Assembly: GCA_902800435.1 (NCBI GenBank)
Contig: CADCEQ010000060.1
Coordinates: 1 to 12,257 of the forward strand
Reading direction: 5' to 3'
From: an uncultured Prevotellaceae bacterium
GTDB taxonomy: Bacteria; Bacteroidota; Bacteroidia; Bacteroidales; Bacteroidaceae
DNA length: 12,257 nucleotides
The notes beneath the pieces are model-generated. The model saw nothing but the letters and a program-made list of their open reading frames with translations. It was not told the origin of the DNA and ran no database searches. How positions within the stretch are numbered: position 1 is the stretch's first letter; each line of letters opens with the position of its first letter. Of this stretch, positions 1-12,257 are shown piece after piece. The position numbers were made by a program, and so were the translations under genes.

Positions 1-366
1 TCCAAAGCTCCTGATGTTGTCAAAACAGGTGTCCAAGGTAAAGCAAAGCAAACAGGATTTCAGTCCCCCAATCCTCCAGTGACAATGAATGAAGAGCAAA
101 TCACGTCAGCAATAGGTGTCCACACCTCTATTCTTGGCGAAGGCTCGATTCTTAGTTCTCAGGTTGGACAGCTGCAAGATACTCAGCCCATGCCAATAAC
201 TTCACGTCCCGATGGCAACTATAATCCTATCGACAAGAGTGCTCATTTCTCTGGTGATGGCACTACTCTCTCAAAGGGCAACATCGTCTGTACGGAATGC
301 CTAAGCAGTAACAGAAGTATTATGGCTGTGGAAACTTCAGATTCAATGAACGATGCCACAGAATAG
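1..366 (+). CDS. 3' end of an unidentified gene next to the mob module (partial)
   Basis: The frame is open from the first base of the window to a TAG stop, giving the last 121 residues of a longer protein. I do not recognise it. The visible tail is rich in Ser, Thr, Gly and Pro, has few charged residues, shows no membrane segment, and holds one CxxC (VCTEC) near its end. A tail this low in structure is typical of the disordered C-terminus of a larger enzyme. In Bacteroidota mobilisable elements the gene before mobC is often a primase or VirE-like protein, but nothing in these residues proves that. An internal ATG at position 79 exists, but there is no reason to prefer it, since the frame continues upstream. 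Confidence 0.55.
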   Translation, partial: SKAPDVVKTGVQGKAKQTGFQSPNPPVTMNEEQITSAIGVHTSILGEGSILSSQVGQLQDTQPMPITSRPDGNYNPIDKSAHFSGDGTTLSKGNIVCTECLSSNRSIMAVETSDSMNDATE

Positions 367-543
367 CGAAAGTAACGGACAGCCAGTCTGCATGTCCTGT
401 AAGAGAGCCGAAAATCCCGGAAGGTTAGTCAAGAAGTCCCAGTGTAATACACGACCGTCCGAGGACCAGTGTATTCCTGCTGGGGTGAAGCCGCTCGCAG
501 GCTCGCAGCAGTTGTCCAAGGCATCATTCAAAATGTAATATTT
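367..543. other. Non-coding stretch before mobC; candidate oriT region
   Basis: This 177-base gap lies between the partial gene and the mobC-like gene, where many small mobilisation modules keep their transfer origin. It contains the inverted repeat AATACAC (446-452) and GTGTATT (469-475), 16 bases apart. The inner GTCC/GGAC (457-460, 463-466) can also pair. The palindrome GTGTA-A-TACAC lies at 442-452. The octamer CCAGTGTA occurs directly repeated at 439-446 and 466-473, and GCTCGCAG is repeated head to tail at 493-508. Repeats of this kind are where a relaxase and a ribbon-helix-helix accessory protein would bind. No nic site can be assigned from sequence alone. Confidence 0.35.
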
Positions 544-927
544 ATGATTAAGAAGAACAATTCGGCTCAGCAGGAGCCAAAGAAGGAGATTATTCGCAGT
601 GTCAGGTACACTTCTGAAGAGGATGCTTTACTTGATGCTAAGTGTGCAACATGTGGACTGCCCAAGAGTGTGCTCATCCATGACACTTCCTTGGGCTACG
701 ACCCTCCACAGCTGATGACCGACAGTCAGGAGGAGGCACTGAAGAGCCTTTCCGCAGCCCGTTCTGAACTTATCGGCATTCGCAATGCTCTCAATGCCCG
801 TAGCCAGGAGCAGCGGAAGCGACTGTTCAGGAACGACCAGTTCATGCTGGCATGGATGGACGGTGTGAACGCACTTATCAGAGAGTGGAAGACAATTCAA
901 GATTATTTTACAGGCATACGAAGATGA
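544..927 (+). CDS. mobC: MobC-like plasmid mobilisation relaxosome protein
   Basis: This 127-residue protein matches the layout of MobC-type accessory proteins. A basic N-terminus (KKEIIRSVRYTSEE) leads into a ribbon-helix-helix type segment at about residues 18-51, with the pattern of a short beta strand, an acidic helix and a Gly-Leu-Pro turn before a second helix. A charged helical C-terminal half follows. Such proteins bind oriT and help the relaxase open the DNA at nic. The ATG at 544 is preferred to a GTG at 469, because residues before 544 have no family resemblance and cover the repeat region. The stop overlaps the relaxase start in an ATGA (924-927), which implies translational coupling. 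The gene symbol is by family analogy. Confidence 0.72.
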   Translation: MIKKNNSAQQEPKKEIIRSVRYTSEEDALLDAKCATCGLPKSVLIHDTSLGYDPPQLMTDSQEEALKSLSAARSELIGIRNALNARSQEQRKRLFRNDQFMLAWMDGVNALIREWKTIQDYFTGIRR

Positions 928-2213
928 CAGCAGTGGGAGATACCGTTCAGAGTGGCCCGGCCATGACGAACTACATTACGAAGAATTTCCGGGCAGACCT
1001 CGTTGTGGTGCATAACCTCAGTGAGGGCCTGCCCCCGATGGGGATGTGGAATGAGATGCAGCTGCACCTCGACCGCTACCGTGCTAAGTTTGCCAGACAT
1101 CCGATAGGCAAGCCAGGCATCATGCTGGTACTTTCCCCATCTGCCGAGGAGAGCAGGGGCTGGGGTGAGAAGGAGTGGCATGACTTCTGCTGGGAGTTCA
1201 TCAGAGAGATGGACAAGGTGGACGAAGTTTACTACAAGGGCAAGCTACATAAGGTGAAGCCGACCAACCTTGCCAGCACACAGATCTTTGCCGGCCTGCA
1301 CCGCGACTCGAAGTCGGGCATCCTTCATCTACACCTGCTGGGGAACCGCATCGACATGTTGGGCAACATCAACGATGCCCACTTCATCGGCGAGCGGGCG
1401 ATGAAGGTATCCGCCATCATCAACAGACGACGCGGATGGAAAGATGCGATGCAGATTCGCGGGGAGCATATCAGACAGATTGCTGGCGACTGCACGGACA
1501 TCCTACGCAAGATGCCTGAGTTCCATTGGTGGACCTACGAGGCGGAACTGAAGAAGCGGGGTTATAAGGTCAAGCTGAACCGCGACAGCATGGGCGAGGT
1601 AAGAGGATATAGCATCAAGATGGGAAACTCGTCCTACAAAGCCTCAGAACTGGGGACAGACCGCCGACTGCTGGCGAGCCGTCTCTACCAAACGTGGGTG
1701 CAGTTGCATAGGGAGCAGGTAGTAGAAGAATATCGTAAGCCCGCACGGCCCCAACAGGACACAAAGGCCCCGATTATCACCGTGCCTCTGCTCCGAAAGA
1801 AGAATGACAGCGAGGAATCCCCAGTGAAGTCAAAGCCACGCAGACCGTTGGATGCTGCAGTGCCTCAGAACGTGAAGCGCGAGACACAGGAGATGTATCA
1901 CGACTCGTTCGGCATGGATGGCATAGACTACGACCTGACCATCCCCATGCCGGTCTATCAGGTGATGAAGGAAGCGGTGGAAGTGGCTGATGGTGCTGCT
2001 CAGACGGTCAACGACGTTCTCCGAGTGGCGATGCTCCTGTTCCTCAACTACGTCGATGCCGCCACTACGATGGCCGAATCCGCTGGCGGTGGCGGCAACA
2101 TTGAGAGTGGCTGGGGGCGCAAGAAAGATGATGACGATGATGAGTGGGCCCGCCGCTGTGCCTGTAAGGCCAACTGGCTCTGCAAGCCGATGCGCAGGAC
2201 TTATAAACGTTAA
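924..2213 (+). CDS. mobA: MOBP/VirD2-type relaxase (mobilisation nuclease)
   Basis: The 429-residue protein is a conjugative relaxase of the Relaxase/VirD2 family, which nicks oriT through a tyrosine and stays bound to the transferred strand. Tyr17 in TNYITKN is the likely nucleophile. The metal-binding signature is His126-x-Asp128 followed by His135-x-His137 and a nearby Asn (LGNRID). The lysine- and arginine-rich C-terminal half is less conserved, and the tail holds a run of five Asp followed by Cys- and Arg-rich residues. The ATG at 924 overlaps the mobC-like stop and replaces an upstream in-frame ATG at 852 that lies wholly inside mobC. Length is normal for a small mobilisation relaxase without a fused helicase or primase. 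No type IV secretion genes are visible, so transfer would depend on a helper element. Confidence 0.85.
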   Translation: MTAVGDTVQSGPAMTNYITKNFRADLVVVHNLSEGLPPMGMWNEMQLHLDRYRAKFARHPIGKPGIMLVLSPSAEESRGWGEKEWHDFCWEFIREMDKVDEVYYKGKLHKVKPTNLASTQIFAGLHRDSKSGILHLHLLGNRIDMLGNINDAHFIGERAMKVSAIINRRRGWKDAMQIRGEHIRQIAGDCTDILRKMPEFHWWTYEAELKKRGYKVKLNRDSMGEVRGYSIKMGNSSYKASELGTDRRLLASRLYQTWVQLHREQVVEEYRKPARPQQDTKAPIITVPLLRKKNDSEESPVKSKPRRPLDAAVPQNVKRETQEMYHDSFGMDGIDYDLTIPMPVYQVMKEAVEVADGAAQTVNDVLRVAMLLFLNYVDAATTMAESAGGGGNIESGWGRKKDDDDDEWARRCACKANWLCKPMRRTYKR

Positions 2214-2226
2214 TTTAAAAAGCACT

Positions 2227-2631
2227 ATGATGAAGAATAAGAACAAGTTTGACGCCATGCTCAATGTCATCGAGTCTGGAGACACGGAGAGCCTGGAGCA
2301 GCAGAATGCCCGGCACATTGAGCAGATGAAAACGCTGTTGGACGACCACTTCGCCCAGCAGCAGGGGCTCCTTGCCGAGTTTACAAAGGGGGGCAAGGCG
2401 AACACAGCGGAAATGAAGAAATGGAGGGAAGAAATGACAAGGGAAAGGAAGGTGCTGACAAAAACACTTGCGGTACACAAAGCACAGATTGACAACCTCT
2501 CTTCCTACAGCGATGGTGTCTTTCTTTCGCAAAGGGTGTATAACTGGTGCCTGGGCATATTTTCCTGCTCTGTGATAATTTCTACAGTGCTTACTACTGT
2601 AGCAGTATTGGTTTGGATGAAAATCATCTAA
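2227..2631 (+). CDS. Coiled-coil protein with C-terminal membrane anchor, mob operon
   Basis: This 134-residue protein starts 13 bases after the relaxase stop and is probably cotranscribed with it. Residues 20-95 are highly charged, Gln/Glu/Lys-rich and heptad-like, which suggests a coiled coil. The final 30 residues form one hydrophobic helix (about 106-131), ending in Met-Lys-Ile-Ile. That topology places the coiled coil in the cytoplasm with the anchor as a tail. I cannot assign it to a named family. Its position suggests a mobilisation accessory factor that could bring the relaxosome to the membrane or to the coupling protein. Two ATG codons in tandem (2227 and 2230) can both serve as start. 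Confidence 0.65.
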   Translation: MMKNKNKFDAMLNVIESGDTESLEQQNARHIEQMKTLLDDHFAQQQGLLAEFTKGGKANTAEMKKWREEMTRERKVLTKTLAVHKAQIDNLSSYSDGVFLSQRVYNWCLGIFSCSVIISTVLTTVAVLVWMKII

Positions 2632-2642
2632 ATCGGTACAAT

Positions 2643-2672
2643 GAGAGCCGAGGCGGTGGTGCCTCGGCTCTC
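2643..2672 (+). terminator. Perfect 12-bp hairpin after the mob operon
   Basis: GAGAGCCGAGGC (2643-2654) pairs perfectly with GCCTCGGCTCTC (2661-2672) around the six-base loop GGTGGT. It begins 12 bases after the stop of the last mob gene. There is no T-tract on either side, so it is not a textbook intrinsic terminator. It could still stop or stabilise the mob transcript. Confidence 0.6.
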
Positions 2673-3021
2673 GTCTGCACTTGCAGCACCGAGTTCGCCA
2701 CTTGCCCGCTTCCGACATCCTCGATGTCATCCACGAGCGGACGGTCGGTGCTCACCACCGTCTTCTCACACGCAGTCATCAGCACCGCCGCCCGCCCGCT
2801 TGGTCGCTCTTGCCACCGAAGGGACGCAAGAACCGCCAGAACAAAAACTTTCTGATCATCGTCATTTGTTTTTTGGTTATTTGGGACTATTCCCATCAAA
2901 AAGAATACAAAAGTAACGAAAACAGCCCGCCGTTCGTCACTTTTAACACGCAAACGCTCCGTTTTACGCAAATAAAATTGTACCTTTGCACACGAATATT
3001 CATCTTAAATACGTATTTATC
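2673..3021. other. Intergenic junction region without a convincing gene
   Basis: About 350 bases lie between the mob hairpin and the mini-ORF. The first part is GC-rich and contains a small stem TCTTGC/GCAAGA (2808-2813, 2826-2831) around a 12-base loop. After about 2840 the composition shifts abruptly to AT-rich and ends in a promoter. Open frames exist on both strands, but none has a recognisable domain, a start with a plausible leader, or a consistent composition. A minus-strand frame here has a weakly lipobox-like LMTAC and could be decayed coding DNA. Confidence 0.5.
2962..2988 (+). promoter_or_regulatory. Bacteroidota-type promoter before the mini-ORF
   Basis: TACCTTTG (2981-2988) is an exact match to the TAnnTTTG -7 box of Bacteroidota housekeeping promoters. 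A T-rich TTTTAC at 2962-2967 sits where the degenerate -33 box is expected. Transcription would begin near 2995, about 27 bases before the ATG at 3022. Confidence 0.6.
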
Positions 3022-3126
3022 ATGGCAAGACCTATCAAAGAGACCCCTATCCTCTATGGTGAAACAGAATGGTTGAGCAGGAGGTTGTGTACCTTTGCAC
3101 CGTTTTTTCAGTATGAGAACCATTAA
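3022..3126 (+). pseudogene. 34-codon mini-ORF, probable 5' remnant of a small conserved gene
   Basis: The ORF reads MARPIKETPILYGE and then an unrelated tail, ending at a TAA inside the regulator gene. From memory, small Bacteroidota proteins of roughly 70-100 residues begin almost identically and then continue with a helical, often Arg/Glu-rich segment. Here the likeness stops at about codon 14, so I read it as a promoter plus first codons left behind by a deletion or insertion. The promoter in front of it is intact, so the mini-ORF may still be translated. It overlaps the regulator start by 14 bases and could act as a leader peptide. The family likeness is recalled, not searched. Confidence 0.4.
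3090..3097 (+). promoter_or_regulatory. -7 box of a promoter for the AraC-type regulator
   Basis: TACCTTTG matches the Bacteroidota -7 consensus exactly and lies 15 bases before the regulator ATG at 3113. No good -33 TTTG is seen at the usual distance. If used, the transcript would have a leader of only about ten bases. The 13-mer TGTACCTTTGCAC is shared with the upstream promoter (2979-2991 and 3088-3100). Confidence 0.45.
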
Positions 3127-4951
3127 GTACATATATATTGTAGGCATGTTTGCTGTGCTGACCTTTGTGAGTTGTCACGGGCCGGCAGAGCAGAAGGCGG
3201 TGACTTCCCAGGAACTGCGGGAACTCTACAAGGAGGTGCTGACGGCAGCTATCAGCAACCCTGACAGCGCGATGATGATGATTGAAAGGCTACGGGTAGG
3301 CGCGCCAGCGGGAATTTCGTTCAGGCAGCATGGTGCAGTGCCCGACTATCACGCCGACCTGATGCGTGCCAAGATATATTCACAATCGCTGGAAGGCACA
3401 AGGCTCGACTCGGCCATCATTATCGGTGAGCGGTTGATGACGCTCGACGTGGCCAAGACCGACTTCGATTACAGGCAAGACGTGCTGGAGATGCTAATCA
3501 GGGCCTGTCGCGCCTACCACGATGACGAGCAAATCATCCACTGGACGACACTGATGATAGACCTCTGCCGACAGCAGGAAAAAAAGCAGCAGACAGATAA
3601 AGTGTATTCAGATATGGAGACCGAAGTGCTGCGCTACAAGACTGACATCGGGTTGACGTACGCTAACCTGGGCAAAGCGGAGGAGGGACTCGCCCTCATC
3701 GACAGTGTCATCACCGAACTCAGCGGCAAGCGGAAATTCAACGAGATGGATGCCTCTGTCATCGCCCTCAAGCGAAAGGTTAATGTGCTCAAGACGGTAG
3801 AGCGCTACAGCGAGATTCCCCAGGCGGCTAAGGTCATGCTCGACCTCATGGCTGACTACGAGCAGCACCCGGATGAGTTCCACGACGGGTCTTATCGTGA
3901 GATACCAGAGAACCTGCGACCAGGATACATCGATTTCTACCGTTCACAGGCATACGTTTTCATGGCGGAAGCATACGCCAACATCGGCGATATGTCCAGT
4001 GCCCGTCATTATCTGGACCTTTTTGAGCATGGCGACCTGTGCAAGACCCTTGAAGGCAGAGAGGAGATAGCACCGACTCTGTGCCTGCTGGGCGAGTACG
4101 ACAAGATGGAGGCCATCTATGGCGAAGTGGCTGCCGGGCTGCGCGAGCAGGGCGACACCGTGAACAACGAATATGCCACTCTGCTCCGCTATCGTGCCAA
4201 GGCTGCCGAAGCACAGGGGCGAAAGGACGAAGCCCTGCGGCTGCTCCATCAGTACGAAGAAGTCAACGACGCGCTCCAGGAGCGTCTGCTCCGCGGCAAG
4301 GCCCACCTCTACGCTGCCCGCTACCATGCCCATGAACAGCAGCAGGAGATAGAGCAGCAGAAGACGGCACGCCGCCATGTCTTTATCGTGGCTCTCTGCA
4401 TCGGCATTGCAGCCCTCGTAGCGATGCTCTTCGCAGCCTATGCCATCCGTCAGCGGCGGCGCGAACATCAGAAGAACCGCGTGTTGGCAGAACAGATAGC
4501 AGAGACATTGGACTATAAGAATATGTATATGGAACTGAGGGCCTCCCCAAGTCCAGTTCCTGCTGACGCGCCTACCCGTCTTTCTGGAGAACAGGATGCG
4601 AAGGAGGCATCTGCCGACCCTGCCTCCCTCTTCCGTTATCTCAGTGATGTCATCATCCATGAGCGCCTGTACCTTGACCCCGCCATAGGGCGACAGATGC
4701 TGTCCGACCGTTTCCACCTGAGCGACCACCTCATAGGCACAGCCTTTGCGCAGGGAAGCAGTTACAAGTCGCTGCCAGAGTTCATCCGCAGCCTGCGCCT
4801 GGAGCACGCCTGCGGCCTGCTCAGAGAACGCCCCGACATGACCATCAGCGAAGTGGCCACCGCCAGCGGCTTCTCCAACCTCAACGTCTTCAGCCGCTAC
4901 TTCAAGGCCAAGTACATGATGACACCGACCGATTTCCGCCAACTGAATTAA
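3113..4951 (+). CDS. Membrane-bound TPR/AraC-type transcriptional regulator
   Basis: This 612-residue protein combines a signal and sensor region with a DNA-binding domain. Residues 1-20 are a hydrophobic N-terminal segment ending in FVSC (Cys21), a lipobox-like export signal. Residues about 175-385 hold TPR-like helical repeats (for example YANLGKAEEGLALI and AEAYANIGDMSSARHYL). A clear transmembrane helix spans about 423-445, followed by an Arg-rich stop-transfer stretch. Residues about 515-612 form an AraC-type double helix-turn-helix with the family signature ISEVATASGFSNLNVFSRYFK and a terminal MTPTDFR. This implies a periplasmic TPR sensor and a cytoplasmic activator in one chain. The ATG at 3113 is preferred to a TTG at 3095 because the TTG lies inside the promoter box. 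Direct repeats upstream of the next operon are its probable target. Confidence 0.85.
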   Translation: MRTIKYIYIVGMFAVLTFVSCHGPAEQKAVTSQELRELYKEVLTAAISNPDSAMMMIERLRVGAPAGISFRQHGAVPDYHADLMRAKIYSQSLEGTRLDSAIIIGERLMTLDVAKTDFDYRQDVLEMLIRACRAYHDDEQIIHWTTLMIDLCRQQEKKQQTDKVYSDMETEVLRYKTDIGLTYANLGKAEEGLALIDSVITELSGKRKFNEMDASVIALKRKVNVLKTVERYSEIPQAAKVMLDLMADYEQHPDEFHDGSYREIPENLRPGYIDFYRSQAYVFMAEAYANIGDMSSARHYLDLFEHGDLCKTLEGREEIAPTLCLLGEYDKMEAIYGEVAAGLREQGDTVNNEYATLLRYRAKAAEAQGRKDEALRLLHQYEEVNDALQERLLRGKAHLYAARYHAHEQQQEIEQQKTARRHVFIVALCIGIAALVAMLFAAYAIRQRRREHQKNRVLAEQIAETLDYKNMYMELRASPSPVPADAPTRLSGEQDAKEASADPASLFRYLSDVIIHERLYLDPAIGRQMLSDRFHLSDHLIGTAFAQGSSYKSLPEFIRSLRLEHACGLLRERPDMTISEVATASGFSNLNVFSRYFKAKYMMTPTDFRQLN

Positions 4952-4981
4952 ACCCCTACTCATCTCATATTCATCGCCTCG

Positions 4982-5004
4982 AAGCCCCCGCTTCGGGGCT
5001 TTTT
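4982..5004 (+). terminator. Intrinsic terminator after the AraC-type regulator
   Basis: AAGCCCC (4982-4988) pairs with GGGGCTT (4995-5001) around the loop CGCTTC, and a run of five T follows at 5000-5004. It lies 30 bases after the regulator stop, so the regulator is transcribed apart from the operon behind it. A second small stem GGCC/GGCC with a TTC loop follows at 5010-5020. Confidence 0.85.
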
Positions 5005-5036
5005 CGTTTGGCCTTCGGCCTTCCTCAGTCGCTCTT

Positions 5037-5075
5037 CGTTTGACCATTCGTGTCAGAGCGTTTGACCATTCGTGT
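5037..5075 (+). promoter_or_regulatory. Tandem 17-bp operator, probable AraC-type activator site
   Basis: The 17-mer CGTTTGACCATTCGTGT occurs twice as an exact direct repeat (5037-5053 and 5059-5075), separated by CAGAG. The 22-bp period puts both copies on the same face of the helix. AraC family proteins bind direct half-sites of about 17 bp spaced by about two turns just upstream of the core promoter, and the layout here is the same. The second repeat ends five bases before the -33 element. The obvious candidate protein is the regulator encoded immediately upstream. Confidence 0.75.
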
Positions 5076-5080
5076 AAACT

Positions 5081-5112
5081 ATTGTATATACGCGCGGAAA
5101 GGCGTATTTTTG
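5081..5112 (+). promoter_or_regulatory. Promoter of the lipoprotein operon
   Basis: TATTTTTG (5105-5112) fits the TAnnTTTG -7 consensus, and ATTG (5081-5084) is a -33-like box with a 20-base spacer, the standard Bacteroidota distance. Transcription would begin near 5119, about 20 bases before the first ATG. The -33 box is imperfect, as expected for an activator-dependent promoter. Confidence 0.75.
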
Positions 5113-5138
5113 CAGGCGAAAATCAAAACGCAAGCGAT

Positions 5139-5360
5139 ATGACGAAACCAGACCAGATGCTCCTCGTAGCGGCAGCCATCGTGCTGCTGCTGGCAGTCAT
5201 GGTGGCAGTGTTGCTGTGGCAGGCGAGGCGACGGCACCGCCTGTTGCGACGACGCGACGAAATCATTGCCGACGAGACCGAGAAGATTGAGACGCTAACC
5301 CGCGAACTCGCCCGGAAGGGCATCCGCGAAAAGGAAACCATCAAATTCAACGAGACATGA
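5139..5360 (+). CDS. Small membrane protein, first gene of the operon
   Basis: A 73-residue protein with a short N-terminus, one strongly hydrophobic helix (about residues 7-27, rich in Leu, Val and Ala), then a very basic stretch (QARRRHRLLRRRD) and a charged amphipathic tail that could form a coiled coil. The basic residues after the helix keep the tail in the cytoplasm (N-out, C-in). It belongs to no family I recognise. The ATG at 5139 follows the promoter by 26 bases; a longer frame to 5040 would cover the operator and promoter and is rejected. Its stop overlaps the next start in ATGA. Likely role: a small membrane subunit or scaffold of the system. Confidence 0.7.
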   Translation: MTKPDQMLLVAAAIVLLLAVMVAVLLWQARRRHRLLRRRDEIIADETEKIETLTRELARKGIREKETIKFNET

Positions 5361-5530
5361 ACATCCACATCCCCCTGTTCCTGCTGCTTGCCGCCCTGGG
5401 CATCGTGCTCGGTGCCATCGCCGTGTGGCTCATCCGCATCAAGCGGCACGAGGAGCATCTCCTGACCCGAAAGACCCGCCAGCAAGTGAAACTCATGAAC
5501 CGCCACTACCGCCTGGCCAGTATGCTCTAA
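5357..5530 (+). CDS. Second small membrane protein (57 residues)
   Basis: The frame starts at an ATG that overlaps the previous stop (ATGA, 5357-5360) and ends in TAA at 5528-5530. The 57 residues consist of one hydrophobic helix (about 5-27, FLLLAALGIVLGAIAVWLI) and a strongly basic tail with many Arg, Lys and His. Topology should again be N-out, C-in, like its neighbour. The start-stop overlap, codon use like the neighbours and the same design as the upstream protein argue that it is real despite its size. The two may form a heteromeric membrane pair. No family is recognised. Confidence 0.65.
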   Translation: MNIHIPLFLLLAALGIVLGAIAVWLIRIKRHEEHLLTRKTRQQVKLMNRHYRLASML

Positions 5531-5543
5531 CCCCGCTGCCACG

Positions 5544-6686
5544 ATGAAAGAACAAAGCCATACCTCCCTGCTCTGGCGGCTCCGCGAGCGCCACGACCGA
5601 CTGAACACCCTCTGCTACTGGATAGAAAGCCACTGGGAGGATGTCCTGCTCTACGCCATCACCGCCACCATCGTGGTGTTGATGGCCGTTCTCACCCTCT
5701 TGATGCTCACTTCATGCGGAAACGACGGCGGCGACACCCCGACGGAGGAGCCATCCGCCGACAACCACGGTGTGGAGGTATGTATCGTCTTTGCGCCCAG
5801 AGACTTGGGCGACCAAGGCTATGCCGACCGCCTGCTGGCCGGATTGTTCCAGTTCGACGGGCAACTGAGTGAGGCTGACTACGACCGCGTGCAACTGCGC
5901 TACATGACCACCTCTGATGCTGAGACCCTGCACGAGCAGTTGCGCCAATGGAACATACAGGGCGGCAGCCCCTACACCCGTCAGCCCTACGAACGCCGTC
6001 TGCTGGTGCTCACTTCCGCCAGCCACTTGCAATATCTGTCCGACACGCCGCTTAGCGACACCGACGAGGTGCTTGTCGTGAACGTTGTTGACTCCGTTTT
6101 TGAGCAAGCCCCTCGCTACGACTGGCTCGGCTCGCGCCTTCACTCACTCTGCATCAGTGCCGCCGAGGGTGCCAGAAAACTGTGTCGCCACATCGACTAC
6201 CAGTTGAGTCGTCCCGAAGAGTTCGGGCGCGAGCGTGCCGTCTATCTGATGCAGTACAACTTCGACTACAGCCATCCCGACAGCCTCTACGAGGTGCTGC
6301 GCGACCATTTCGGTGCCGACCTCCACACCACCGTCCTGCCCCGTACGGCCACGGGCATCGACATCGACCGAGCCTTCCAGATGGGCGAGGCCATACAGAA
6401 CGGCGGCGCTGCCCACATCAGTTATGCCGTCCTCAACTGCGGCTACTACAACCCCTTCATCTACGGCTATTTCTTCACGCAGGGCACGGGTGTCGTGGAA
6501 ACCACCTACCTCGACTCTGATTTCCAGGACCACTATGGCAGTTATCCCTCCATCGTCCGCCATTACGACCGTGCACTCTGCCAGTGGCTTGTACGCTGGC
6601 TCGCCAATCCGGCGGCCATGCCGCAAAAGGAGTGGCACGGTGCATGGGACGGCTACACCACCGACAATATAGAAACCTACGAATGA
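5544..6686 (+). CDS. Membrane-anchored BMP-like periplasmic binding protein
   Basis: 380 residues. A charged, probably cytoplasmic N-terminus of about 33 residues precedes a hydrophobic helix (34-54) that ends in LMLTSC (Cys58). This looks like a lipobox, but the n-region is unusually long, so the protein may be lipidated, membrane-anchored, or both. A low-complexity Gly/Asp/Glu/Pro linker follows. The exported domain opens with VCIVFAPRDLGDQGYADRLLAGL (shown here only as its motif: beta strand, Asp87-x-Gly-Asp-x-Gly-Tyr93, helix), which resembles the start of BMP/Med-type and other type 1 periplasmic-binding folds. Alternating strands and helices continue to the C-terminus. It likely senses or presents a small ligand. 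It starts 13 bases after the preceding gene. The fold assignment rests mainly on the N-terminal motif. Confidence 0.6.
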   Translation: MKEQSHTSLLWRLRERHDRLNTLCYWIESHWEDVLLYAITATIVVLMAVLTLLMLTSCGNDGGDTPTEEPSADNHGVEVCIVFAPRDLGDQGYADRLLAGLFQFDGQLSEADYDRVQLRYMTTSDAETLHEQLRQWNIQGGSPYTRQPYERRLLVLTSASHLQYLSDTPLSDTDEVLVVNVVDSVFEQAPRYDWLGSRLHSLCISAAEGARKLCRHIDYQLSRPEEFGRERAVYLMQYNFDYSHPDSLYEVLRDHFGADLHTTVLPRTATGIDIDRAFQMGEAIQNGGAAHISYAVLNCGYYNPFIYGYFFTQGTGVVETTYLDSDFQDHYGSYPSIVRHYDRALCQWLVRWLANPAAMPQKEWHGAWDGYTTDNIETYE

Positions 6687-6689
6687 CCT

Positions 6690-8972
6690 ATGAACCAGAA
6701 GATGAGACATATTATATATATAGGTATGGCTATCCTCGCCCTCTCTTCCTGCCAGAGCGATGATGACAACCAGCCGTTGCCAGCCACAACGACCCAAGAG
6801 GTGGTGACCGTCAATGTGGATGTCATCCTGCCGGGCAGCGTGCAGAAGAGCCTTCAACCTACCATCGCTGATGCCCTGCACAACATCGACGATGCACAGG
6901 AGAAATGCCCCAAGCGGATAAAACTGAACCTGCGCTACCATGATGAGGATACCACTGACCTGACCAAGTTGGCCTACGCCCTGACCAACCCCGGCCAAGG
7001 TGATGCCGCCTACGTGCAGCCCGACACCTGCCACGCCATCATAGGCCCCTACTACAGCGACCATGCCCGCGCCGTGCTCAATCAGGCCCAGCGGATGCGC
7101 CTGCCGGTGCTGATGCCCTGCACCAGTGCCGAGTTGCAGCGCAGCGAGGCCACGCAGACCAACTCGTTCTTCCTCATCGAGAGCGACATCACCCAGTGCG
7201 AGGTGCTGCTCTCTGCCATCCAAGCGCAGGGACACGAGCGCGTGGCACTGCTCTATAGCGACGACACCTACGGCCAGTCCTACCGCGACTGGTTCGGTTT
7301 CCTGGCCACCGAACTCGGTCTGCAGCCCGTCAGCGGCGGCATACGCGAGTTCCAGTCCGGCGATAATTTCACGGAGTTCTACCAGCACCTTGTCACTGAT
7401 GCCTCCCCCACCAAGCCCGTGGCGCTGATCATTGCCCTCGGCCGGCCTGACCACTACAGCCAGGTGCTCGGTGCCTACAAGCAGTTTGCAGAGGTCATGG
7501 CCGACACGCCCGACAGCAAGCACCTGATACCACACGTCTACGTGACCGACACAGGACTGACCGACGACGTGCTCCAGTACAACGTCCGCGGCACCTATCC
7601 CGCAGGCTCCTCGTCCGACGGCTACGTACAGAACTACCAGGCACTGCACGGCGAGTTTCCCCCCTTCTGTGCCGCCCAGGTGTACGACGCCCTGAGCATC
7701 ATCGCCCTCGGACGAGCCGCGCAGGCCTACGCCGCCGACCCCGAGGAACTGTATATCGACCAGCGCCGCGTGGCCTTCGAGACAGCCCCCTACGGCCCGG
7801 TGCTCAGCGACTGGATGCGCGCCCTGCTGGCCAACAGCAGCCGCAGCACCGAGACCCTCTGGATAGGCTACGGACTGGCCACCGCCTTCATGCTGACGGA
7901 GCGGGGCGTCATGCCCAACCTGCACGGGGCCAGCGGCACCCTGGACTTCGACTCGCAGACGCACACCACCATCCTCAACACGCTCTACCTGCTGTGGGAG
8001 TCGCCCGGCGACGGCAGTGCCATCATCCCCTTCGCCACCCTCTCCACCACGACTGACGGCAGTTTCGCCATGCAGAGCATCTGGAACTGGAAGCACAAGG
8101 TGCATGAGTACGACGACGACCTGGGAGCCAATGCCGGACAGAACCTGCCCGCCACCGAAGAGCGGTGGGCAGTGGTCATCAGCCCCTCCACCAAGTGGAC
8201 CAACTACCGCCACCAGGCCGATGCGCTGGCCATCTATCAGGGGCTGCGCCACTATGGCTACGACGACGACCACATCGTCCTCATCGTAGAGGACAATCTG
8301 GCCGACGACCCGCAGAACCCCTTCCCCGGACAGATATTCGTGGAGCGGGCTAGCCAGCCTGACCCCGCCAACCCACTGGTGAATGCCGACCTGCACAAGA
8401 ACCTGCAGGTGGACTACCACTTCAGCGACCTCAACAGCCCCGACGACCTGGCCGACATCCTCCTGGGCCGAGCCTCCGACCGTCTGCCACACGTCATACG
8501 CCCCACGGCCCGCGACAATGTGTTCTTCTTCTGGAGCGGCCACGGCGATGACGATGACGGCCCAATCTGGGGCGACGAGGACGCCCGCCGCGTGTTCGGC
8601 TCCAGGCTCATCCGCAGCACCGTCGGACAGATGCAGTACCGCCGCATGCTCATGGCCGTCGAGACCTGCTACAGCGGCAAGTGGGGCGAGGCACTCACCG
8701 GCCTGCCAAACCTGCTGGTGCTCACCGCCGCCAATGCCTACGAGACATCGAAGGCCGACGTGTACGACGCAGAGATGCGCACCTTCCTCTCCAACGCCTT
8801 CACCCGCACCTTCCGCAACATCATCAGCCAGCAGCCCGACGTCACCCTGCGCGACCTCTACTACTCGCTGGCCCGCACCACCAGCGGCAGCCACGTGTCG
8901 CTCTACAACATCGAGAACTACGGCTCCGTCTATACCAACGACATGAGTGACTATATAGTAACATCAAAATAA
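6690..8972 (+). CDS. Lipoprotein fusing LivJ-like binding domain to C13 legumain-like peptidase
   Basis: 760 residues. The signal peptide ends in LALSSC (Cys21), and SDDD directly behind it fits the Bacteroidota export signal that sends lipoproteins to the cell surface. Residues about 37-470 form a type 1 periplasmic-binding module of the LivJ/ANF kind (AIIGPYYSDHA, VALLYSDDTYGQSY, and YDALSIIALG near the end). Residues about 492-740 form a peptidase C13 domain. It opens with RWAVVISPS, then NYRHQAD (506-511 region), DNVFFFWSGHG with catalytic His618, VETCYSG with catalytic Cys660, and LTAANAYETS. The His-Cys spacing of 42 matches legumain and GPI8. Expected action is asparaginyl cleavage or transamidation at the envelope, perhaps controlled by the ligand domain. 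It starts three bases after the previous stop. Confidence 0.85.
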   Translation: MNQKMRHIIYIGMAILALSSCQSDDDNQPLPATTTQEVVTVNVDVILPGSVQKSLQPTIADALHNIDDAQEKCPKRIKLNLRYHDEDTTDLTKLAYALTNPGQGDAAYVQPDTCHAIIGPYYSDHARAVLNQAQRMRLPVLMPCTSAELQRSEATQTNSFFLIESDITQCEVLLSAIQAQGHERVALLYSDDTYGQSYRDWFGFLATELGLQPVSGGIREFQSGDNFTEFYQHLVTDASPTKPVALIIALGRPDHYSQVLGAYKQFAEVMADTPDSKHLIPHVYVTDTGLTDDVLQYNVRGTYPAGSSSDGYVQNYQALHGEFPPFCAAQVYDALSIIALGRAAQAYAADPEELYIDQRRVAFETAPYGPVLSDWMRALLANSSRSTETLWIGYGLATAFMLTERGVMPNLHGASGTLDFDSQTHTTILNTLYLLWESPGDGSAIIPFATLSTTTDGSFAMQSIWNWKHKVHEYDDDLGANAGQNLPATEERWAVVISPSTKWTNYRHQADALAIYQGLRHYGYDDDHIVLIVEDNLADDPQNPFPGQIFVERASQPDPANPLVNADLHKNLQVDYHFSDLNSPDDLADILLGRASDRLPHVIRPTARDNVFFFWSGHGDDDDGPIWGDEDARRVFGSRLIRSTVGQMQYRRMLMAVETCYSGKWGEALTGLPNLLVLTAANAYETSKADVYDAEMRTFLSNAFTRTFRNIISQQPDVTLRDLYYSLARTTSGSHVSLYNIENYGSVYTNDMSDYIVTSK

Positions 8973-8990
8973 AGTCTTTAACACAACAAA

Positions 8991-11423
8991 ATGAAAAGAA
9001 ACCTGAACTTCTGGCTGATGGCCGCCCTCATCGGGGGCCTCAGCATGAGCGTCGCCTCCTGCAAGGACGACGACAAGGAACTCTCCGAGGAGGAGAAACA
9101 GCAACAGGCCGAGCAGCAGGCCGAACAAGACATGGCCGATGCCGCCACGTTCTGGGATGTGGTGGGCCAGTTGACCGACGACGTGATGCCCGACGACGAC
9201 TGGCAGAACGCCACCTACGAGCCGTCCATCGGCGAGGCCGACGCCACCAACGCCACCGTCCGCGTCGTCTCCACCGCCGACGTGGAGACCGCTGCCGAGC
9301 GCTTCGCACAACTCACGGGAGCCGACGTCAACGCCTCGACCACCGAGTACACCTATCAGAACCCCCTCGTTGGCTCGCTCACCTACCGCCGCACGGGCGG
9401 ACAGTCGCTGGCCACCGTCGACGTCAGCATCAAGCAGATGCCCGGACTCTCGCAGATTGTCTACAAGACTCCCGAGCAGATGGGCGACAACGCTTCGTTC
9501 AAGGGCACGGCCTACTACCGCTTCGGCGACGTGGTGCAGAAGATGAACGCCGACGGCCAGTATGACTACTGGATCTGCGTGCGGCCCGCCTTCGGCCCCG
9601 AGGGCAAGGGCGACAGCCACTGGATAACGCTCAGCAAACTGCCCTCCAACTACGTGAAGACCGTCAACAAGACCGTCAACGGCCAGAAACTGAGCCACAC
9701 CATGCCCAAGAGTCTGGGCACCAACAAAGAGCACATGCAGAACCTGGCCGAACTGGTCTATGCCATGACCGCCTCGGAAACGTGGGCCATCAACCTGGCC
9801 GCCAACTACAAGACGCTGAAATACTTCAAGGACTTCCACTACGAAACTAACTTCAAGTACCACAACGCCGCCTTCTTCAGCAATGTCAACGAGGGCATGC
9901 CCGACCGCTTGTTCCAGGAAATCTTCGGCCTCACCAAGCAGCAGATGCGGCAGGAACTGGAGCAGTACGGCCTGCACCTCATCTACGGCTCGCCCTCGAT
10001 GAACGGCAACAACATCATCTTGCCTGTGGCCGAATATGCCGGCATCAACATGAAGACCGCGCAATACTACAACTCCTCCACCACATGGGATGCCGCCTCC
10101 TTCAACATCTACGCACTGACCCGCAATCACTACATCAGCGACACCCGCATCACCGGCGGCAACGGCAAGATGTGGGTCTGCCGCTACGCCACCGGAGCCA
10201 CGCTGGCCAAGGGCAGCGCCGAGACCCCGGCCACCTTCGACAAGTACAAACGACTGCCCAACTGCCGCGACGTCTTTGTCTATAATGCCGATGTGGACAA
10301 CCTCGACCTGGACAACCTGAAGAACATCGAGCCGCGTGAAGGCATTGCCGACTTCTCGGGCATACCTTACTATAGTCACGGCGACATCCTGCAAGACCAG
10401 TACGGCCACCGCTGGTTCGTCATCAACCAGGCAGGCAATCCAGACGCTGGGGAAAGTAAGGGCGAGAAGTCTCCCTACAGCGAACTCATCAGTTTCGAGG
10501 ACTTCACCGTCAGCAACGACCGGAAGAAGGCCACCAACCTGCCTACGCTCAAGCAGGCCATCCGAGGCGCATACTTCCTCGAGATGTTCTACAATCAGAC
10601 AGAACATTTGCGTGGCCTTACTAAAGAGCAGGTCATTCAAAAGAACTGGTATCCGCAATGGGGAAGCAGCGTGTTTAATCTGCTGGAGTACTGCGACGTA
10701 CAGATACTCGACCTGTTCCAGCGAATATCCGCTCAGAACGGCAACGTGCGAGAGCCTACTATTGCAGCCAGCATAGCATACGATGACGGCTCGGGCAAGC
10801 AGCGACTGCTGCGATGGATCAGAAACAACCAGGTGGAGGGAGAGAACATGTACCACTATCTCTCCGACCTCTACCCGGCCAGTCCCAATGCTACCACGCA
10901 GTTCTACGAACAATACGCCTATAGCACCCTTCCCATCTATCTGCAGGACATTGCCAGCAAGCAAATGGTGGAAGCCTTTGCCGAGGACACCTACGCCCGC
11001 CAGGGACTGTCGAAAGGAGACAACATCACAAACGATGCCGACACGTCGCCCCGCCAGCCGCGCACCGAAACCGACGACCGCGTGAACGACGTGCGCAACT
11101 GCTTCTACTATCGCACGGCATGGCAATATCGCACCTTCATCGGCGATATGTGGAACGCGCCCATACTCATGTTCCGTATGACACGCGTCTATGACTGTGG
11201 TGAGAACGACCACTCCGACACCACCGTCGACGGACTCCGGCTTACCAGGATTGCCAAACACGAGTGGTACGACAAAGATATTTCTGAAGACGAAGTACGT
11301 GAAACCTTCGGGAATACCATGAACGCCATCTGGGCCAACTGTTACTCTGACGGGCGTTCCTCGGGCTGGTGGTTCCTCAACGGCGAAGCCTTCGACTTCC
11401 CCACATGGCGCACGGCCTGGTAA
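8991..11423 (+). CDS. Large orphan lipoprotein of the C13 peptidase operon
   Basis: 810 residues. The signal peptide ends in SVASC (Cys24), followed by KDDDK, a strong K-(D/E)2 surface export signal. A Glu/Gln-rich, probably coiled-coil linker covers about residues 29-50. The rest is a large soluble part rich in Tyr, Asn, Asp and Trp, as seen in surface-exposed or secreted proteins of this phylum. No catalytic motif is evident to me, and I do not recognise the family. Three spaced segments repeat a pattern of Tyr-rich strand plus GDIxQ or GDVVQ (for example YRFGDVVQ and YYSHGDILQ), which may mark related subdomains. It lies 18 bases after the peptidase gene and is probably its partner or substrate. 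The C-terminus ends in TAW. Confidence 0.7.
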   Translation: MKRNLNFWLMAALIGGLSMSVASCKDDDKELSEEEKQQQAEQQAEQDMADAATFWDVVGQLTDDVMPDDDWQNATYEPSIGEADATNATVRVVSTADVETAAERFAQLTGADVNASTTEYTYQNPLVGSLTYRRTGGQSLATVDVSIKQMPGLSQIVYKTPEQMGDNASFKGTAYYRFGDVVQKMNADGQYDYWICVRPAFGPEGKGDSHWITLSKLPSNYVKTVNKTVNGQKLSHTMPKSLGTNKEHMQNLAELVYAMTASETWAINLAANYKTLKYFKDFHYETNFKYHNAAFFSNVNEGMPDRLFQEIFGLTKQQMRQELEQYGLHLIYGSPSMNGNNIILPVAEYAGINMKTAQYYNSSTTWDAASFNIYALTRNHYISDTRITGGNGKMWVCRYATGATLAKGSAETPATFDKYKRLPNCRDVFVYNADVDNLDLDNLKNIEPREGIADFSGIPYYSHGDILQDQYGHRWFVINQAGNPDAGESKGEKSPYSELISFEDFTVSNDRKKATNLPTLKQAIRGAYFLEMFYNQTEHLRGLTKEQVIQKNWYPQWGSSVFNLLEYCDVQILDLFQRISAQNGNVREPTIAASIAYDDGSGKQRLLRWIRNNQVEGENMYHYLSDLYPASPNATTQFYEQYAYSTLPIYLQDIASKQMVEAFAEDTYARQGLSKGDNITNDADTSPRQPRTETDDRVNDVRNCFYYRTAWQYRTFIGDMWNAPILMFRMTRVYDCGENDHSDTTVDGLRLTRIAKHEWYDKDISEDEVRETFGNTMNAIWANCYSDGRSSGWWFLNGEAFDFPTWRTAW

Positions 11424-11477
11424 GAATAAAAGATATATCTGCAATATAGTTTCACAATTATAATTATCAAAAACAAA
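11424..11477 (+). other. AT-rich 54-bp gap within the operon
   Basis: The gap between the 810- and 142-residue lipoprotein genes is much richer in A and T than its surroundings and holds the palindrome AATTATAATT (11456-11465). No TAnnTTTG box and no terminator are visible, so read-through is the simplest model. The A-rich bases before the ATG serve as a Bacteroidota-style leader. Confidence 0.5.
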
Positions 11478-11906
11478 ATGAGAACAACAGTCAAACATTT
11501 CCGCATGCTCGTGGCCGCTCTGGCCATGGGCGCTGTGGTAGCCGCCTGTTCCGACGACAACTACAGCATCAATGAGGCCCGGCTCGACGGCAACATCACC
11601 GTGCTCGGACAACTGGAGGCCTACAGCCACGTGACCTCCTTCAACCTCGTGACCGACGCCGACGCCGCGCTGACTACATCCGCCGAAGAACAGGCAATGT
11701 TTACGGCGAGCCTTACGAACTTCGTGAAGCGAGGCGACATAGCTCTCTCCGAACTTGTCAGCGACACCCAGTTGCAAACCATTCGACGTGCCATTGGTAT
11801 GGCCCGCGGACAGAACAGCCTCACTGCCATTAAGAGTTTCTGTACCCCCGACATTGACTTTGGACAGATACGTCTGGTGCTCGATTCCATGAAGAGGGAA
11901 TCGTAG
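11478..11906 (+). CDS. Small lipoprotein, last gene of the operon
   Basis: 142 residues. A basic N-terminus and hydrophobic stretch end in VVAAC (Cys24), and SDDN after the cysteine is an acidic export-type signal, so the protein is probably on the cell surface or in the outer membrane. The mature part has a mixed, mostly helical pattern with no motif I recognise. It could be a fasciclin-like or accessory fragment, but nothing supports a name. It probably belongs to the same transcript as the 810-residue lipoprotein. Its TAG stop (11904-11906) touches the stop of the converging helicase gene with no base between. Confidence 0.65.
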   Translation: MRTTVKHFRMLVAALAMGAVVAACSDDNYSINEARLDGNITVLGQLEAYSHVTSFNLVTDADAALTTSAEEQAMFTASLTNFVKRGDIALSELVSDTQLQTIRRAIGMARGQNSLTAIKSFCTPDIDFGQIRLVLDSMKRES

Positions 11907-12257
11907 CTATGCGAAGAATTGCCTGATGGTATTAAGCAGGGGCGACGGCTGGCGAGCATACAGTCGTCCCCACCGCGATACCTGTTGCTGTGAGATGGCT
12001 ATGAAAAGGCGCTTCTTTGCACGCGAGATAGCCACATAGAACTTGCGTGCCTCTTCTTCTTGCGACTCGTTGCTATTGGCATAGTAGCTGGGGAATTTTC
12101 CCTCAACTGCGTCGTAAACGATGACATTGTCGAACTCCAAGCCTTTTGCTTTATGCACAGTAGAGATGAAGATCCGCTCCTGCATGCTGACACTGCCGCA
12201 GAGATCGGCCTCTTTCATCGTGTTCAACTCCTGCAGATGCGCTTCAAGCTGGGTGAT
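11907..12257 (-). CDS. C-terminal end of a UvrD/PcrA-type ATP-dependent helicase (partial)
   Basis: The frame stays open to the end of the window, so 116 C-terminal residues are visible and the ATPase N-terminus lies beyond it. A TTG at 12227 is internal and not a start. The block STVHKAKGLEFDNVIV is superfamily 1 helicase motif V, and the block RKFYVAISRAKKRL is motif VI with its arginine finger. They belong to the UvrD-C/PcrA domain that couples ATP hydrolysis to movement on single-stranded DNA. The protein would act in DNA repair or recombination. The gene is probably resident chromosomal DNA flanking the lipoprotein system and shows no link to it beyond the convergent junction. Confidence 0.85.
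   Translation of the reverse strand: MTQLEAHLQELNTMKEADLCGSVSMQERIFISTVHKAKGLEFDNVIVYDAVEGKFPSYYANSNESQEEEARKFYVAISRAKKRLFIAISQQQVSRWGRLYARQPSPLLNTIRQFFA

Follow-up and report, generated by a model that had tools for sequence, protein, structure and literature searches.

What would a legumain-type peptidase do on the surface of a bacterium when it carries a receptor for small molecules, and what, if anything, would link it to the perforin-like MACPF proteins encoded beside it in some relatives? The question is raised by a 12,257-nucleotide stretch of DNA from an uncultured Prevotellaceae bacterium (GenBank assembly GCA_902800435.1, contig CADCEQ010000060.1, positions 1 to 12,257 of the forward strand), hereafter the window, which encodes C13-PBP, a lipoprotein in which a type 1 binding module of the LivJ/mGluR kind is joined to a C13 cysteine peptidase of legumain type. 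Legumain and GPI8 have been studied mostly in eukaryotes, and legumain-type enzymes are mostly processing enzymes of narrow specificity rather than digestive ones. The domains and the logic of a clan CD peptidase paired with a pore former are known, and the fusion is already visible in database annotation, where it is automatically named 'ABC transporter substrate-binding protein' or given a composite name with GPI8; the arrangement is new, and no paper on the C13-PBP fusion or on a C13-MACPF operon was found in the literature searched.

A C13 peptidase fused to a type 1 binding module

C13-PBP belongs to peptidase family C13, with a predicted catalytic activity. The preliminary description of the window had put forward a C13 peptidase fused to a LivJ-like binding module in a bacterial surface lipoprotein, with His618 (SGHG) and Cys660 (ETCYSG) as the catalytic dyad, and the profile search, the homologue alignment and the structure prediction all bear it out. 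The Pfam profile PF01650 (Peptidase_C13) matches residues 492-743 at 127.9 bits, well above its cut-off of 22.8, His618, Gly619 and Cys660 are invariant in 60 of 60 aligned homologues, and the predicted model superposes on legumain, with the His-Gly...Cys dyad placed in a caspase-like (clan CD) fold. A chance motif match as the source of the assignment is ruled out by profile, sequence and fold together. The lipobox of the signal peptide reads ALSSC, and its Cys21, the presumed lipidated residue, is likewise invariant in all 60 alignment rows; the acidic stretch that comes next, QSDDD, resembles what we take to be a surface-export signal.

C13-PBP departs from legumain and from GPI8 in several respects. 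Unlike legumain (asparaginyl endopeptidase, AEP; MEROPS C13), C13-PBP is a lipoprotein, is fused to a binding module and has no C-terminal activation/LSAM prodomain, the end of the modelled chain (residue 760) aligning to legumain residue 288. Unlike the GPI8/PIG-K transamidase subunit, it is a bacterial lipoprotein, and the 17 mostly polar residues that follow the Pfam C13 domain leave no room for a GPI8-like C-terminal transmembrane helix. The Asn-specific S1 pocket of legumain is presumably formed by Arg44, Glu187 and Asp231, and in a register counted by hand over a gap-free alignment stretch two of the corresponding positions are Arg507, invariant in 60 of 60 homologues, and Glu658, kept in at least 90%, but the third, that of Asp231, is taken by Asn702.

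The N-terminal module was characterized with a profile of 14 such domains, which matches LivJ (3.7e-10), 4mlc (1.7e-7), mGluR1 (3.1e-6) and others; the sequence of 4mlc has been solved with Leu as 4q6b. In the type 1 binding superfamily, GPxxS and TS stretches hold the amino acid backbone of the ligand, and both stretches of C13-PBP align with those of LivJ/4mlc/mGluR1-type proteins in the 14-domain profile alignment. The 60-row alignment shows Ser123 as at least 90% conserved, although it is absent from the 14-row conserved list, and Thr145/Ser146 are at least 90% conserved in the 14-row alignment and absent from the 60-row list. From these features we infer that the ligand would be amino-acid-like. 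Of the two activities suggested in the preliminary description, ligand-gated proteolysis and protein ligation, the former is plausible given the conservation of both binding fold and catalytic dyad.

A search of about 5.8 billion proteins with the whole of C13-PBP returned 291 matches, drawn from the 7,996 candidates sharing most words. Among the 120 matches listed, PF01094 and PF01650 are present in all 120 and PF13458 also in 117, and the fusion thus extends beyond the source genome. The C13 part alone as query gave 1,837 matches, and the six of 120 listed that carry no binding-module label are all shorter than 600 aa. Six loci with named records come from Prevotella, Bacteroidaceae and Bacteroidales metagenome assemblies, five of the six from ruminant stomach. 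C13-PBP is present in 11 of 100 relatives (genome G033 alone holds eight near-full copies) and in seven of the 393 genomes of an order-wide sample; in a phylum-wide sample of 395 genomes, the full-length protein was found only in G001.

Gene order and linkage to MACPF lipoproteins

In several relatives, genes for MACPF-domain lipoproteins, often with BACON domains preceding the MACPF domain, share both strand and gene run with C13-PBP. Pfam MACPF E-values are 1.5e-9 and 4.1e-7 in locus L046, 1.1e-11 and 3.7e-12 in L069, 1.8e-8 and 7.1e-9 in L070, and 9.4e-9 to 3.8e-8 in L076, L034 and L068. Three types recur. The long type matches perforin-1 (2.6e-6) and complement C6 (8.9e-6) in profile comparisons; the short type, with weak PDB matches, aligns to the long type at 99.9% in hhalign; and MAC3, with no Pfam MACPF match in the four proteins scanned, aligns to the short type at 97.1% (E 5.4e-11) and has a profile match at 2.9e-4 to PDB entry 6fbm, which we take to be a MACPF protein. 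The order MAC3-long-N810-short-Bmp-C13PBP is found in L034, L044 and L068, and the variant MAC3-short-long-N810-Bmp-C13PBP in L040 and L046. Here, Bmp stands for a Bmp-like lipoprotein, encoded immediately upstream of C13-PBP in 28 of 31 loci (the others being L035, at a contig edge, L051 and L071), and N810 for a family of large lipoproteins with a common N-terminal part and varied lengths, present as tandem copies in some related loci. In L032, the locus closest to the window, a single MACPF gene comes after Bmp-C13PBP-N810 and is followed by the contig end. At least two acidic residues follow the lipobox Cys in 18 of 32 C13-PBP, 16 of 22 Bmp-like, 18 of 24 MACPF and 18 of 24 N810 proteins, counting only proteins whose lipobox is recognized by a simple pattern that sometimes takes an earlier Cys. 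A single frame in L041 (10426-11280, G033:C12) matches both the long-MACPF profile and the last 77 residues of C13-PBP, a double match that points to recombination within these loci.

The co-occurrence of the two genes was counted among relatives, in same-genus genomes and in the order sample. Six of the 11 relatives with C13-PBP have MACPF genes, with 14 matches, 12 of them on a C13-PBP contig and the other two on a short G019 contig that shows the same gene order and ends in N810. Among 60 same-genus genomes, C13-PBP is found in 11, MACPF in 11 and both in six (P 0.003); in the order sample the corresponding counts are seven, 24 (21 above the Pfam cut-off) and four (P 3.3e-4), G001 belonging to both samples, and all nine MACPF matches of the four double-positive genomes are on the C13-PBP contig. 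As a control, the 20 order-sample genomes with MACPF and without C13-PBP were inspected: five show weak partial C13 matches (12 in all, the best at 4.8e-8), none on a MACPF contig. When neighbourhoods were counted in 31 loci, C13-PBP frames under about 600 aa being excluded, 15 were MACPF-linked; among these, the two L037 rows depend on a fragment of 85 aa with a weak score (22 bits), and the window counts through its truncated gene; L042 is not among the 15 because its MACPF genes fall outside that locus. The nearest MACPF frame lies 1.0-4.7 kb from C13-PBP in the 13 linked loci other than the two L037 rows, and about 14 kb away in G033:C87.

The tree of C13-PBP separates clade B (nine rows, none MACPF-linked) from a larger group that holds all 16 rows labelled as MACPF-linked. 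The label was set by hand, for L045 by inference from the separate contig L075 and for L042 from L076, an overlapping stretch of the same contig, and it requires nine changes on the tree, a figure that overstates gains and losses because seven unlabelled P-id rows lack context and others lie at contig ends. MACPF is found in six of six clade A carriers against five of 54 other genomes in the same-genus sample, and in four of four against 20 of 389 in the order sample, under a clade A/clade B split that was made after seeing the tree and that omits the MACPF-less, long-branch G016. Nine typical clade A genomes have linked MACPF genes: G001, G019 (by inference), G033, G042, G050, G059, G168, G350 and G386.

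MACPF genes also occur in other settings. G008 (L079:4588-13986) and G041 (L080:5452-15037) each carry six tandem genes for MACPF-like lipoproteins by a loose profile; by Pfam MACPF there are four in each, plus a fifth in G041. Five scanned flanking proteins gave an AraC-type regulator, GLUG motifs or nothing, and the arrays are followed by large proteins, which have GLUG motifs or lack any known domain. A C11 (clostripain) match near a MACPF gene was seen in one of the 25 MACPF genomes without C13-PBP, G045, where a C11 gene (2.4e-36, with a lipobox by eye) adjoins a same-strand MACPF lipoprotein gene (L083:4920-8886), perhaps the C11 equivalent of what is described here for C13. In G193 and G295, C11 is on the MACPF contig but more than 700 kb away.

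Surroundings of the gene in the window

The features of the window are collected in Table 1. The 380-aa product upstream of C13-PBP has itself no Pfam Bmp match, and is assigned to the Bmp/PnrA type by homology because its homologues match PF02608 (1.1e-9 in L046 and 8e-9 in L069; 4.2e-4 in L049, below the cut-off), four of six homologues in one Pfam scan set being without a Bmp match. Its score against the Bmp-like profile is 382 bits, with the window protein itself one of the 12 profile rows. The N810 protein has no Pfam match, and its confident model (predicted local distance difference test, pLDDT, 89.7) finds no PDB fold match at E 0.001. The 142-aa protein that follows shares 60% identity over residues 1-105 with the N-terminal end of a 930-aa protein encoded in L032 (933 stop to stop), for which the Pfam MACPF E-value is 2.8e-8, and matches HTH_40 at residues 79-135, overlapping the L032-like part at 79-105. 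At 11478-12257 the truncated gene adjoins the end of a UvrD-like helicase gene on the opposite strand; either a genuine rearrangement or a joint made in assembly could account for the truncated end.

Table 1. Features of the window, with strand and the basis or context of each
Feature	Position	Strand	Basis or context
TPR + AraC-type (HTH_18) regulator	3113..4951	+	upstream of operon; membrane segment by eye
Two perfect 17-bp direct repeats, 22 bp start to start	5037..5075	+	repeat search
Small protein, 73 aa, first gene of predicted operon	5139..5360	+	inner ATG of open reading frame; membrane segment by eye
Small protein, 57 aa, overlapping start	5357..5530	+	sequence; membrane segment by eye
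Bmp/PnrA-like binding lipoprotein, 380 aa	5544..6686	+	homology; 3 bp upstream of C13-PBP
C13-PBP gene, 760 aa	6690..8972	+	open reading frame call, Pfam, predicted structure
Signal peptide with lipobox ALSSC	6690..6752	+	read from sequence
Type 1 periplasmic-binding module, about residues 37-450	6798..8039	+	profile match and fold
C13 peptidase domain, residues 492-743	8163..8918	+	Pfam PF01650
Predicted catalytic His618 (SGHG)	8541..8543	+	sequence; invariant 60/60
Predicted catalytic Cys660 (ETCYSG)	8667..8669	+	sequence; invariant 60/60
N810 lipoprotein, 810 aa	8991..11423	+	open reading frame; 18 bp downstream of C13-PBP
Truncated start of BACON-MACPF lipoprotein, 142 aa	11478..11906	+	54 bp after N810

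Upstream of the predicted operon, the regulator matches HTH_18 at 7.7e-15 and TPR_12 at 1.8e-4, below the cut-off of the latter, and the direct repeats look like a candidate operator of an AraC-type regulator. Just after the repeats, at 5082-5112, a TTG-N20-TATTTTTG arrangement was spotted by eye, which we take to resemble the Bacteroides promoter pattern. The left part of the window (544-2213) encodes a NikA-like mobilisation protein and a MobA/VirD2 relaxase, and the locus may on that account sit in or beside a mobilisable element. The 760-aa protein has no tblastn match in plasmid or phage collections. A known defence-system or phage protein was rejected as an identity, with no PADLOC family among five window proteins and no PHROGs family among four, and so was an RNA feature, no Rfam match exceeding its gathering score.

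Possible roles of C13-PBP

Proteolytic control of pore formers has several precedents. Two CDC-like toxin (CDCL) proteins of B. fragilis need cleavage by a surface C11 peptidase for pore formation, the two-component CDCL pore formers of Bacteroides being activated by DpnB, a C11 enzyme of the cell surface, and BcdI, a surface lipoprotein of the CDCL operon, is an immunity factor that blocks pore formation (PMC11169675). The proteolytically activated form of a CDCL has been structurally solved (PMC11952106), fragipain activates BFT and Fab1 (PMC8406203), mammalian AEP cleaves the MACPF protein perforin-2 in dendritic cells (PMC7614779), and a proteolytic trigger is discussed by the authors for the MACPF toxin BSAP-1, one of the Bacteroidales secreted antimicrobial proteins (BSAPs; PMC12853789). 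The loci described here resemble the CDCL system in co-encoding several proteins of the pore-former superfamily, in having as candidate activator a lipoprotein that is a cysteine peptidase of clan CD, and in an accessory surface lipoprotein within the operon; unlike the CDCL system, in which the C11 enzyme acts on the target cell, their peptidase is of type C13, sensor-fused and operon-encoded, and their pore formers are Pfam MACPF proteins, often with BACON domains (PMC11169675). They share lipoproteins with a Pfam MACPF domain with the BSAPs, but BSAP-1 and BSAP-2 are single-protein toxins, whereas up to three MACPF proteins and a peptidase are encoded here (PMC4999547, PMC12853789). The pairing of a legumain-family enzyme with a MACPF protein recalls AEP and perforin-2, a eukaryotic, lysosomal case with experimental cleavage, whereas the present case is bacterial and its cleavage conjectural (PMC7614779).

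By analogy with the CDCL and fragipain precedents, we tentatively favour, at somewhat less than even confidence, a reading of C13-PBP as a surface-anchored sensor-peptidase that controls the co-encoded MACPF and/or N810 lipoproteins. In this sensor-peptidase model, the binding module would detect an extracellular ligand, either amino-acid-like or a peptide, and control the peptidase, which would cleave the MACPF and/or N810 lipoproteins after Asn residues, or perhaps Asp. Cleavage would free them from their lipid anchor or remove a brake, and the MACPF proteins would then build a pore on a competitor, a mixed one in loci with several types. The sensor-peptidase pair of clade B, whose loci lack MACPF genes, would have some other substrate. 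We infer by analogy that there is a cut, where it falls, what the ligand is and whether control means activation, release or protection. The model is more specific than the hypothesis of the preliminary description because of the adjacent Bmp-like lipoprotein and, in one clade, the co-encoded MACPF lipoproteins. A stronger version, which we consider doubtful, envisages a complement-like system in which a receptor-gated legumain-family peptidase matures up to three kinds of MACPF protein (MAC3, long and short) into a mixed pore; such a sensor-peptidase-perforin cassette would parallel, in its logic, both complement and the processing of perforin-2 by legumain.

A number of observations weigh against the sensor-peptidase model. 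Asn702, itself at least 90% conserved, occupies the position of what we take to be Asp231 in legumain. No conserved cleavage site was found, the Asn count of the BACON-MACPF linkers being uninformative, and in the window the MACPF-gene copy breaks off before the MACPF domain. No MACPF match was obtained in the seven genomes whose C13-PBP copies all belong to clade B (G010, G023, G025, G035, G161, G315 and G346), or in G016, whose long-branched copy (L051) is basal to clade A; the clade A loci L038 and L039 are without MACPF as well. Conversely, MACPF occurs without C13-PBP in five of 60 same-genus genomes (G008, G021, G041, G043 and G045) and in 20 of the 24 MACPF genomes of the order sample; within the 19-20 kb examined around the G008 and G041 arrays there is no C13-PBP profile match, and C11 matches in these genomes are on other contigs. 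Given these arrays and the other MACPF genomes without a linked peptidase, MACPF loci are not obligatorily tied to one. Among the precedents, the activating peptidase of the CDCL acts on the target cell and lies outside the toxin operon (PMC11169675), mutation of three candidate C11 sites left killing by BSAP-1 unaffected (PMC12853789), and other Bacteroides MACPF proteins tested were without antimicrobial activity (PMC4999547); because of the latter two results, proteolytic activation and killing cannot be assumed for the MACPF lipoproteins.

Other roles can be envisaged for the same genes. The pair might scavenge nutrients, digesting proteins at the cell surface and binding the released amino acids or nucleosides, with MACPF proteins, where present, freeing nutrients from lysed neighbours, and the likeness of both binding modules to nutrient-binding proteins, the clade B loci without MACPF and the largely ruminant-stomach origin of the named records agree with this. 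However, no recurrent transporter gene lies beside the pair in the gene lists read, in which most neighbours are without a Pfam scan, and legumain-type enzymes are generally known as narrow-specificity processors; we deem scavenging unlikely. The existence of clade B, in which the pair comes without MACPF genes, speaks instead against self-protection, whereby a peptidase on the producer surface would cut or block the co-encoded MACPF proteins as an immunity factor rather than an activator. That reading leaves the conserved binding module without explanation, and BcdI, the surface lipoprotein that serves as the CDCL immunity factor in B. fragilis, is described as blocking pore formation and not as a peptidase (PMC11169675). 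Even with a surface-type lipoprotein in the same gene run as MACPF, and with AEP cleavage of perforin-2 possibly serving pore inactivation (PMC7614779), self-protection appears quite unlikely.

Alternatively, the MACPF genes could lie near the peptidase gene only because surface lipoproteins are grouped in a variable island, the two being functionally unrelated. The loci are rich in lipoproteins, recombination is indicated in L041, and the left part of the window contains genes for mobilisation; in addition, clade A loci without MACPF exist alongside MACPF loci without the peptidase. Yet the gene order recurs in near-contiguous frames across genomes of several families, and the nine typical clade A genomes have no Pfam MACPF match clearly outside such an operon, which makes simple clustering improbable. 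Still less probable is a transpeptidase role, in which a GPI8- or butelase-like ligase would attach surface proteins such as N810 to an acceptor, since the partner proteins have lipoprotein signals of their own.

C13-PBP is thus a bacterial legumain-type enzyme with a small-molecule receptor built into the same chain, and in one clade it shares a gene run with perforin-fold proteins. If the sensor-peptidase model is correct and the enzyme matures the MACPF proteins, these loci would provide a model, encoded by few genes, of a membrane-attack cascade under the control of a sensor, and a new activation route for Bacteroidales pore formers, as well as a small system in which to test the relation between legumain and perforin of dendritic cells.
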